Source: Blastocatellia bacterium
GTDB taxonomy: Bacteria; Acidobacteriota; Blastocatellia; Pyrinomonadales; Pyrinomonadaceae
NCBI GenBank assembly: GCA_003168335.1
Contig: PMSM01000010.1
Span: 781,588 to 845,587, forward strand
Reading direction: 5' to 3'
DNA length: 64,000 nucleotides
Below, piece by piece: positions 49,690-53,119 of the stretch (position 1 is its first letter; each line of letters starts with the position of its first letter). A program made the translations under genes and the position numbers. The notes below the pieces were generated by a model that searched no databases, was not told the DNA's origin, and saw only the letters and a program-made list of their open reading frames with translations.

Positions 49690-50166
49690 CTACTGCGTTT
49701 TTACAGTTGCTCCTTCGACCGGATAGCCGGCGCTCTTCCAGGCTGCCAGACCACCCAACAACGCTGCCGCATTATCGATTCCTTTGGTTTTGAGTTCGAC
49801 CACCGCACCGGCGCTCGTATGTTCGCTTGGTCAAGTACAGTAGGCCACAATCATCTTGTTGCGCGGCAGTTCGTCTATTCTCGCCAAAACAGTTCCCGTC
49901 GGCATGGAAATCGAGCCCGTGATGTGCTCGTCCTTGTAGGCATCTTCCGCGCGCGTGTCGATGACCAGCACGTCCCCTTTCTTCCACAGGTCGTGCAATT
50001 CTGTCGCGGTGATCCGGCGTGCAGTGTCAGCCGGCGGAGCCGCCGGCAGTTGAGGGGTCGCGGAGGTCTTTCGGCCCTGCGAGAGCAAGGTCTCGTTTGA
50101 ATTACAGGCTATCAACCCGCCAATTGCGACCAGGAATATTAACGAGGCCAAAGTGATGAATCGCAT
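49690..50166 (-). CDS. Probable selenocysteine-containing rhodanese lipoprotein (in-frame TGA)
   Basis: The frame opens at 50166 and reads a lipoprotein signal (LVAIGGLIAC, Cys 21), a linker, and a rhodanese domain: V-L-V-I-D-T-R-A-E-D-A-Y, H-I-T-G-S-I-S-M-P, then M-I-V-A-Y-C-T, TGA (49831-49833), P-S-E-H-T-S-A. It continues in the same frame for 46 codons and completes the fold with A-A-A-L-L-G-G-L-A-A-W-K-S-A-G-Y-P-V, to a TAG at 49690-49692. The TGA takes the place of the second Cys of the C-x-C-P-x-E-x-x-S-A active-site motif of related rhodaneses. The gene follows selB on the same strand. With Sec at residue 112 the protein has 158 residues; if TGA were a stop, the domain would end inside its active loop. 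Confidence 0.8.
49798..49833 (-). promoter_or_regulatory. Candidate bacterial SECIS element after the UGA
   Basis: On the mRNA the UGA begins at 49833. GACCA (bases 2-6 counted from the U) can pair with UGGUC (bases 32-36), and CGC with GCG around the loop CGGU (bases 24-27). Bacterial SECIS hairpins start at the UGA and have a small G-containing apical loop about 20 bases further on; both fit. The left side has about 14 unpaired bases, and other folds are possible, so the exact structure is uncertain. Confidence 0.5.
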
Positions 50167-50234: not shown

Positions 50235-50359
50235 CGGAATGAGGTCAGTACCACCTGCGTGAGCGGGTGGATCAGACATTCAACGGCGACGTTATGACCC
50301 GATCCTGTTGCTTGAGTGTCGCACCACCCGCTCACGCAGGTGGTACTGACCTCATTCCG
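50235..50359. repeat. Hairpin element, family C (36-nt perfect inverted repeat)
   Basis: The arms at 50235-50270 and 50324-50359 are exact inverted copies, each containing GAGGTCAGTACCACC; 53 bases lie between. It is inserted between selB and the rhodanese gene. A related element with GTCAGTACC...GGTACTGAC ends is at 61106-61239. Confidence 0.88.
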
Positions 50360-50383: not shown

Positions 50384-52288
50384 TTAAAGCACAATCCGGC
50401 GGTCACCTTCGCGGCGCGTCACGCGCTGGCGGTCGAGATATTCAAGCAGAGGAATCGCGTACTTGCGCGAGACGCCGGCAAGGTCCTTGAAAGCAGCCAC
50501 GTCAATTGCCCGATCAGTTTGCTTCGCGCCATGCGCACGCACTCTTTTGATTAGTTCGTCCAAAGCCGCCCGATGAAAAAACATCTCGCCATGGACCTTG
50601 ACCAACAGGCCCGCATCAATCAGCAATTGCAGAATCTTTCGTCCCTGCTGCGCCGCGGCGCCAGCGCCTACGAGCGCTTCATTCAGGCTCGGCGCCGCCA
50701 GACCCGCATCGCGATAGATCTTTTCCAAACGATCGCGCAAACCCGAATCTTCATTTGAAAGCTCGCGAGTGTGTTCACGCAGGCGCACAATCTCTTTCTC
50801 TGAGACCAGCGCCCCTTCCTTTTCTAAACTCGCGAGGACCCCGCGAAACACCTCTGGGAACGCGTGGGCAAAGAACCGCTCGCGTAAAACCTCTTTTGCC
50901 AATCCGCGCAAGAGCGGCTCGCGCTGGTGATGCGCGGCGATTTCGTGAAGGACCAGTCGCTTCAGTTCATTGAATCTTTCAGGACTTAACCAGACTCCTT
51001 CGGCATCAATGATCGCGCCGGCGGCCAAAGCCTGCTTTGCCGCGGTCTCGATTACTTCGTCGCGCCAGGCGGTGCGCGCCGCTAAATCACCTCGCCGCAG
51101 GCCGTGTTGATCCCCGCCGGCAACGAACACCGCCAGTTGCTTCGCGCGATCGCCGCTGAGAAGTGCATCGAGGCGTGCGCGCACCGCTGCGACATCTCGG
51201 AGACGATGCCGGGGTGGGAACGCATCGAGGATCAGGCCGCCTCCGATCGTAACCTGCGGAGAGTACGAACGAAGGATGAAGCGATCGCCGAGCGCGCCCA
51301 CGATCGGCGTCTCGGTCCGCAACTGAATGACACCGGACTGGCCGGGTTTGATCTCGCCGCCATCCGCCAGCACCCGCACGCGCGCCAGCACCTCTGCGGC
51401 GCCGAGGTGAACCCGAACGCGTTGCCGCGAGCGGAGCGGGCGCGACGCATTCTCCAGCAGTTGGACTGACGCATCGATGGCTTGAGTGGAGACCAGACGC
51501 TCGGACGGCGCCAGCACCATGCCGCGCTCGATAGCCGCGGCTTCCACCCCGCCCAGGTTGATGGCTGTGCGCTGACCGGCGATCGCCTGCGGAACCGGCG
51601 ACCCATGCACTTGCACGCCGCGCACGCGCACACGGGTGGCCGCGGGTAATAATTCCATTTCGTCGGCTTCCGCGATTTCGCCGGCGATCAAGGTTCCAGT
51701 CACGACCGCGCCAAACCCGCGCATCGTAAACGCGCGATCGATTGGCAGGCGCGTGACAAAGTCGGCCGAGCGCGCTGCGACTTCCAACCCTATCTCGCGC
51801 AGAGCTACTTTCAGCGCTTCAATTCCCTCGCCCGTCCGTGAACTGACCGCGATGATCGGCGCGCCTTCGAGAAATGACCCGGCCACCAGTTCTTCGGTTT
51901 CCGACCGGACCAACTGAAGCAATTCCTCGTCCACCAAATCTTTCTTGGTAAGCACCACCAGGCCTTTGCGCACGCCGAGCAGCCGGCAGATATCAAAGTG
52001 TTCGCGCGTCTGTGGCATCACGCCTTCATCAGCGGCAATCACCAGCGCAACCGCGTCGATTCCGTGCGCGCCCGCCAGCATGTTCTTGACGAAGCGTTCA
52101 TGCCCGGGAACATCGACAAATCCGACGCGCAGGTCCCCCAGATCGAGATCGGCAAAACCAATGTCGATCGTGATGCCGCGCCGCTTTTCTTCCGGCAGAC
52201 GATCGGCATCGACGCCGGTCAACGCGCGCACCAGTGCTGTCTTGCCGTGGTCGATGTGGCCCGCCGTCCCGATGATTATGGATTTCAT
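50384..52288 (-). CDS. selB: Selenocysteine-specific translation elongation factor SelB
   Basis: SelB brings selenocysteyl-tRNA to the ribosome at UGA codons that carry a SECIS hairpin. The GTPase motifs are G-H-I-D-H-G-K-T (G1), [11 protein letters not shown] (G2), D-V-P-G-H-E-R-F (G3) and T-K-K-D (G4). Beta-barrel domains follow, with [15 protein letters not shown] near residue 185. The last 200 residues are the winged-helix domains that bind SECIS RNA. The length of 634 fits. G-I-T-I-D-I-G-F separates SelB from EF-Tu. The start is ATG 52288 (GTG at 52303 possible); an AT-rich TATTATACT lies just upstream. No selA, selD or tRNA-Sec gene is seen in the window. Confidence 0.96.
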
Positions 52289-52384
52289 ACCGAGTTTGCC
52301 CACCCGATAGTATAATACGCGACGTTCTTTGGACCGATTACAATCAGATCACCTGTTCCGGTGGTCGTTTAAGGAGAAATCAAA

Positions 52385-52717: not shown

Positions 52718-53119
52718 TTTGAGAGGATCATCCTCGATCGTTTTACGCTAAAAGAGCGAAGTGTCGAGCCGGAACCAACCGGCCTGCGCCGGCCGCCGGG
52801 GCACCAGCCCGCGCGTACGCAAGGGCTCATGTCTTCACGCTGAAAGCGTGAAATAAAATAGCCCAGGGCAACGCCCTGGGTTACAGGCACCAACAAGATT
52901 CCAAGAGCCCGCTTCAGCGGGCGACAGAAAAAAGCACGTCGATCGATTGCACACCGGTCTCTGTACGAGAACGATCTAAGATTCATTAATCACTGATCCA
53001 GCGGACTCCGGACGCCTTTGCCGCCACCGAACAAATCGTTGGACCGGAGCGCGCGGCACTGCGCCGACGAAACGTACCTGACGCAACAACAAACCACTTT
53101 GTGCGTTAGAATCAATTCC
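52718..53119. repeat. Intergenic hairpin cluster (family G)
   Basis: No gene is supported here. Hairpins lie at 52835-52851 (TCACGCT/AGCGTGA), 52861-52880 (CCCAGGGC/GCCCTGGG) and 52906-52923 (GCCCGCT/AGCGGGC). They share TGAA/TTCA-type loops with the cluster at 20020-20258. The stretch near 53030-53060 (AACAAATCGTTGGACCGGAGCG) looks like another dispersed repeat and creates a spurious upstream extension of the next frame. Confidence 0.65.

Follow-up and report, generated by a model that had tools for sequence, protein, structure and literature searches.

The question raised by this locus is whether a TGA lying in a rhodanese reading frame is a stop or a selenocysteine codon and, in the latter case, what the resulting protein may do. 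The gene is located on the minus strand of the 64,000-nucleotide stretch of DNA analysed here (the window), at 49690..50166, with an ATG at 50166, a frame from 50166 to 49693 and a TAA stop at 49690-49692. Read with TGA as U, its translation is MRFITLASLIFLVAIGGLIAC...MIVAYCT-U-PSEHTSAGAVVELKTKGIDNAAALLGGLAAWKSAGYPVEGATVKTQ, a protein of 158 residues in which the single TGA is codon 112 (49831..49833, minus strand) and is followed by 46 codons up to the TAA. The sequence around it is Y-C-T-TGA-P-S-E, and Cys110 (49837..49839, minus strand) is the first residue of the C-x-U motif. The preliminary description had proposed a single frame leading from a lipoprotein signal into a rhodanese domain, and a TGA that occupies the place of the second Cys of the motif with the frame open for 46 codons beyond it. 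Coordinates and translation agree with both proposals. A signal peptide with the lipobox L-I-A-C21 lies at 50104..50166 (minus strand), and the Pfam Rhodanese model (PF00581) matches residues 53-145, across the TGA, with 54.2 bits (cut-off 22.2). The lipobox pattern fits 21 of the 32 homologous genes described below, as judged with a crude pattern and automatic starts. The window rhodanese is thus predicted, with high confidence, to be an exported, extracytoplasmic lipoprotein. One feature that weighs against a Sec reading is the third-codon-position GC content, which falls from 0.75 upstream of the TGA to 0.54 downstream.

Homologues were searched in 396 genomes from the phylum Acidobacteriota, 191 of which have a match at 1e-8, the weaker ones including other rhodaneses. 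The first 30 loci yielded 32 genes with the motif Y-C-x-[U/C], and the codon in the U/C column is TGA in 28 of them, TGC in three and TGT in one. All 28 TGA-bearing genes, which come from 27 genomes, have the TGA at the C-x-U position. The same holds for 20 of 20 genes from 19 further stretches. These stretches were selected because the match contained a TGA and do not exhaust the rows of that kind, so that only the place of the TGA counts as evidence there. At one of the loci (L146), the stop-to-stop frame contains an additional TGA ahead of the domain. Four others (L143, L145, L148 and L149) contain TGA C-x-U domains in stop-to-stop frames that extend past the domain, to 330-748 amino acids; these may be fusions, or the frames may simply run through TGA codons that are ordinary stops. 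Two TGA rhodaneses stand side by side in each of two genomes (G075 and G157), and a TGA copy adjoins a Cys copy in a third (G042), these arrangements being found among L017, L030 and L136.

An alignment of 30 of the 32 genes (A1; L035 and L038 were omitted) has Cys110, the U/C column, Glu115, Gly138 and Gly139 among its invariant columns, Cys110 being present in 30 of 30 rows. The mean identity of the 29 other rows to the window protein is 58.7% over residues 113-150, as against 37.6% over residues 49-111. The idea that the TGA is a decay stop or a sequencing error in a dead rhodanese gene, to which the truncated 111-amino-acid frame given by the ORF caller would be the pointer, has practically no chance of being right, given that 28 genes from 27 genomes, and 20 more from the further stretches, all have their TGA at one place, and that the protein is more conserved downstream of the TGA than upstream. 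Relatives with ordinary stops or frameshifts around this place, which the preliminary description had named as a sign of decay, were looked for among the homologues, in which the column holds either TGA, as in the window gene, or a Cys codon.

The mechanical ORF list shows just the 111-amino-acid frame for this gene, and that truncated protein could itself be the real product, with the downstream part as a relic. This would correspond to the ordinary reading of a TGA, and the stem-loop of the window, described below, is not significant when taken alone. However, the helix and the G-G that follow the TGA are conserved, and 4 of the 32 genes have Cys instead of the TGA. Moreover, the motif occurred in its Cys form at 39 of 39 loci of a separate scan, which used a back-translated Cys pattern and could find Cys forms only, Cys forms being therefore favoured by design. 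A truncated product is, on these grounds, very improbable. In its best form, a tree built from 54 proteins (28 Sec and 26 Cys) requires at least 11 changes of the Sec/Cys label, and at least four changes are forced by the starred branches, the bootstrap being not fully settled. The tree leaves out 17 of the 40 Cys matches of L044-L082, which look like near-duplicates, as well as a spurious match of L056 at 1713; the sequences of L046 and L054 are identical to genes of G042 and G227.

The genome from which the window comes (5.16 Mb in 14 contigs, 96.6% complete) encodes the components needed to read UGA as selenocysteine. A tRNA-Sec was found with the Rfam model (67.3 bits, cut-off 47) and by ARAGORN as tRNA-SeC(tca), and selA (530 bits, cut-off 267.9), selB (TIGR00475, 381.6 bits, cut-off 242.25) and selD (359.7 bits, cut-off 125) all score over their cut-offs. 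The absence of tRNA-Sec, selA or selD, which according to the preliminary description would have spoken against a selenoprotein, is thus not what this genome presents. A second tRNA-Sec match (L002, 47.6 bits against the cut-off of 47) was rejected, as ARAGORN identifies it as a serine tRNA. The selD gene (L010, G000:C7:141967-142896) has its own TGA within S-C-S-G-U-A-A-K, and SelD itself is probably a selenoprotein.

Insertion of some other amino acid at the UGA by a suppressor or near-cognate tRNA would likewise conserve the downstream part. Against it stand the Sec system of the window's genome, the fact that Cys codons are the only other codons at the column, and two relatives that lack the Sec system and have Cys; we consider this reading to have a very small chance of being correct. 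The proposal of the preliminary description that the TGA encodes selenocysteine has gained from both lines of evidence, the presence of the Sec system and the occurrence of TGA or Cys at the column in relatives, and UGA112 is almost certainly read as selenocysteine, as far as comparative sequence analysis can tell.

The relation between the Sec system and the state of the column was also followed across genomes. selA was found in 252 of the 396 genomes (at 1e-60) and in 40 of the 41 genomes with the TGA form (27 of 27 in the first set and 13 of 14 in the further set), these counts not being independent, since the genomes are related. In the one exception (G341, an assembly of 150 contigs), no selA match exceeded 23.6 bits, yet its tRNA-Sec (72.8 bits) and selB (309 bits) are both over the cut-off, so that an assembly gap is one explanation for the missing selA. 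Two TGA C-x-U rhodanese genes (L149 and L150) are carried by this genome. The four Cys genes lie in G086, G042, G189 and G227. The former two have selA and TGA copies besides the Cys copy, and in the latter two, where the Cys form was the only one seen, neither selA, tRNA-Sec nor selB was found over the cut-off. The Sec or Cys state thus appears to follow the presence of the Sec system. Such close relatives with Sec and Cys forms, with and without the Sec system, amount to a natural experiment on selenium in a rhodanese active site.

A SECIS-like stem-loop, supported by comparison of related sequences, starts 13 nt after the TGA (49797..49817, minus strand). Downstream of the TGA, no gaps are needed to align the 28 Sec sequences of the first set, and their consensus is a stem of up to 8 pairs, at a constant distance from the TGA, with a 5-nt loop whose second nucleotide is G. 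Bacterial SECIS elements are described as having a guanosine in a small apical loop (PMC1088965). In the consensus stem 75.0% of the cells are paired, as against 27-48% when the stem is slid along the alignment. The number of paired cells, the number of cells changed on both sides (13) and the covariation score were reached by none of 500 shuffles, in a test based on 26 distinct rows and with a tool that warns that related sequences can beat shuffles without any structure. The numbers of pairs with double-sided changes (4) and of further pair types (8) were within the range of the shuffles (88/500 and 239/500, respectively). The two innermost pairs never vary, and RNAalifold retains 4 pairs and gives a covariation term of -0.36. 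The 45 nt of the window do not fold better than shuffled sequences (z -0.36, with 55 of 200 as good); as this fold is not significant, the folding of a single sequence was rejected as proof of a SECIS element. With a simple SECIS rule, 5 of the 28 Sec genes gave no hairpin, at least two (L035 and L042) gave one other than the consensus, and 2 of the 4 Cys genes gave a hairpin. All 28 Sec genes use GCC for Ala119; at the same position of 44 Cys rows, which include the spurious L056 row and near-duplicates, GCC occurs 12 times, GCG 10, GCT 4 and GCA 3, and the rest encode other residues. The stem-loop itself is likely to exist, and it probably directs Sec insertion at the UGA.

The preliminary description had mentioned that rhodanese-like selenoproteins had been suggested in environmental surveys. 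Such proteins are indeed in print, with the C-x-U form among them: one review lists a CxU form as form 2 of COG0607 (PMC9312934), and another gives C-x-U as form 3 of the rhodanese-like selenoproteins, corresponding to NF041203 (PMC13188914). As C-x-U rhodanese selenoproteins are already covered in two reviews, the novelty of the present family is limited. NF041203 (rhodanese_LYCAU) describes a single rhodanese domain with Y-C-x-U, as seen here; no other NCBIfam model fits the window protein better, the same is true of all 10 relatives that were scanned one at a time, and at E 0.001 it hits every one of the 30 members of A1. However, the window protein (78.6 bits) and the 10 relatives (62.5-100.2 bits) all remain below its cut-off of 115. 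The window protein is therefore classified, from its sequence, as a predicted C-x-U rhodanese selenoprotein that is not a member of NF041203 by the curated rule, and automatic annotation may truncate it because of its score below that cut-off.

Other known systems resemble it less closely. TsoB (NF045694), a rhodanese/DsbD fusion-like selenoprotein, also has a rhodanese domain with Sec, but its model covers 572 positions and its motif is UxxxxU (table in PMC13188914), whereas the window protein has 158 amino acids and one rhodanese domain and scores 25.9 bits against a cut-off of 805. The Sargasso Sea and GOS surveys likewise describe proteins that combine a rhodanese domain with a predicted Sec; they are of the types COG2897, cd01449 and COG0607, and the excerpts available from these surveys give no C-x-U motif (PMC1088965, PMC2398784). 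The single-domain rhodaneses GlpE and PspE are similar in fold and length (28.1 bits with the GlpE model, and a profile match to the GlpE structure 1gmx), but the window protein is below the cut-offs of both, which are 102 bits. GlpE and PspE are Cys enzymes and are not known to have this C-x-U motif. Selenoproteins of the Acidobacteriota have been little treated in the papers searched: one survey counted four selenoproteins of three families in Acidobacteria (PMC1794560) and another tested one Acidobacteriota genome and reported three selenoproteins (PMC12013277), rhodanese not being mentioned in the portions of either text that were consulted. No paper on this below-cut-off rhodanese branch was found in the literature searched. 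The window protein is a well-supported selenoprotein candidate from that phylum and belongs to a below-cut-off branch of the known C-x-U rhodanese selenoproteins.

Two more TGA rhodanese genes are present in the window's genome (L084, G000:C12:21415-21771, and L085, G000:C13:114682-115038). Their TGA is elsewhere in the active-site loop, in Y-C-A-S-P-T-U-N-A-S, which corresponds to a C-x4-U motif. Matches to this second branch at 1e-12 were obtained in 20 of the 118 genomes of the class. Among 24 loci that were read, 14 have a TGA at the column (L084 and L085 included), one has TGC (L122) and nine do not fit the pattern. The best NCBIfam match of L084 and L085 is TsoB, with 53.2 and 45 bits against the cut-off of 805, and neither has any match over cut-off; TGA-bearing relatives of the two genes occur in the family.

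The gene next upstream of the window rhodanese on the same strand was said in the preliminary description to be selB, and this is correct: a gene for the Sec-specific elongation factor, with a TIGR00475 match over the cut-off, lies at 50384..52303 (minus strand), 217 nt away. The space between the two genes contains a palindrome (50235..50359), whose 28-base arm has 24 matches in the genome with up to 2 mismatches (control, 0), several of them as inverted pairs; it is a repeated extragenic palindromic element. The flanking genes of 20 neighbourhoods were compared using ORFs of at least 90 amino acids up to ~5 kb on each side. A SelB relative was found in one of them, from the same genus (L091, 66% identity, ~2.7 kb upstream), and in none of the other 19. 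The adjacency of selB, observed only in the window and in one genome of its genus, was consequently downgraded as evidence.

In a sister genus (g2), a gene for what we take, from its sequence, to be a Bcp-type peroxiredoxin lies just upstream of the rhodanese gene and on the same strand at 13 loci of the first set, next to Sec and Cys forms alike. It was found neither at the other 17 first-set loci nor in the window. Three more g2 genomes with a rhodanese match also carry it, which brings the count to 16 of the 16 g2 genomes examined; one further g2 genome (G038) has no rhodanese match. At 11 of the 13 loci the rhodanese start lies between a 4-base overlap with the Bcp stop and 55 nt after it, L035 and L043 having been left out because their automatic start is wrong. 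At four loci (L094, L095, L099 and L103), the rhodanese gene follows a gene of cluster c7, presumably purF-like, instead of Bcp. The Bcp neighbour in the sister genus suggests a peroxide-stress setting. No signal was seen by eye in the Bcp-type sequence, which looks cytoplasmic, and with an exported rhodanese this weakens the case for a direct partnership with Bcp, membership of both in one stress regulon being the better fit.

The AlphaFold model of the window protein has a block of pLDDT 93-98 over residues 51-150, the first ~30 residues being of low confidence, and the PDB entries that match it best, 3tp9, 3nhv and 6mxv, are rhodanese domains. As judged by eye, the counterpart of the catalytic Cys is Cys110 when counted from the preceding strand and Sec112 when counted from the following helix; a profile alignment to 6mxv places Sec112 on the catalytic Cys. 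SelB and tRNA-Sec would decode UGA112 as selenocysteine, probably by way of a stem-loop in the coding sequence, and the active-site loop would hold Cys110 and Sec112 as a C-x-U pair. In the most likely mechanism, which would operate outside the cytoplasmic membrane, either of these two residues would accept a sulfane sulfur or an oxidising equivalent, its partner would resolve the intermediate through a Cys-S-Se-Sec bond (selenenylsulfide), and some reductant would reopen that bond.

The alternative with the best standing accepts the selenocysteine and assigns the protein to sulfur or selenium transfer, as a persulfide or perselenide carrier, instead of redox chemistry. Its rhodanese fold is in keeping with such a role, and rhodanese domains carrying persulfide or perselenide are known. 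However, a second Cys stands two residues from the Sec column in 30 of 30 rows of A1, the signal places the protein away from the cytoplasmic synthesis of Sec, and a Bcp-type gene adjoins the rhodanese gene in the sister genus, although Bcp looks cytoplasmic by eye. We regard transfer as a serious contender that is nevertheless somewhat improbable, and a redox mechanism through the Cys110/Sec112 pair as having about an even chance. With motif, fold and location as the basis of the assignment, the protein would under the redox mechanism be a selenium-dependent persulfide/thiol oxidoreductase rather than a plain thiosulfate sulfurtransferase. A wider and more speculative picture, which we offer only tentatively, would be that of an extracytoplasmic Se-dependent persulfide/polysulfide reductase common in Acidobacteriota, which becomes a Cys enzyme upon loss of the Sec system, is tied to peroxide defence by the Bcp operon in one genus, and is accompanied by the C-x4-U branch, without signal, in the cytoplasm of the same cells.

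Elsewhere in the window, an Acido-Lenti-1 RNA (RF01687) was detected at 52836-52880 on the minus strand, with 44.1 bits against a gathering score of 37.
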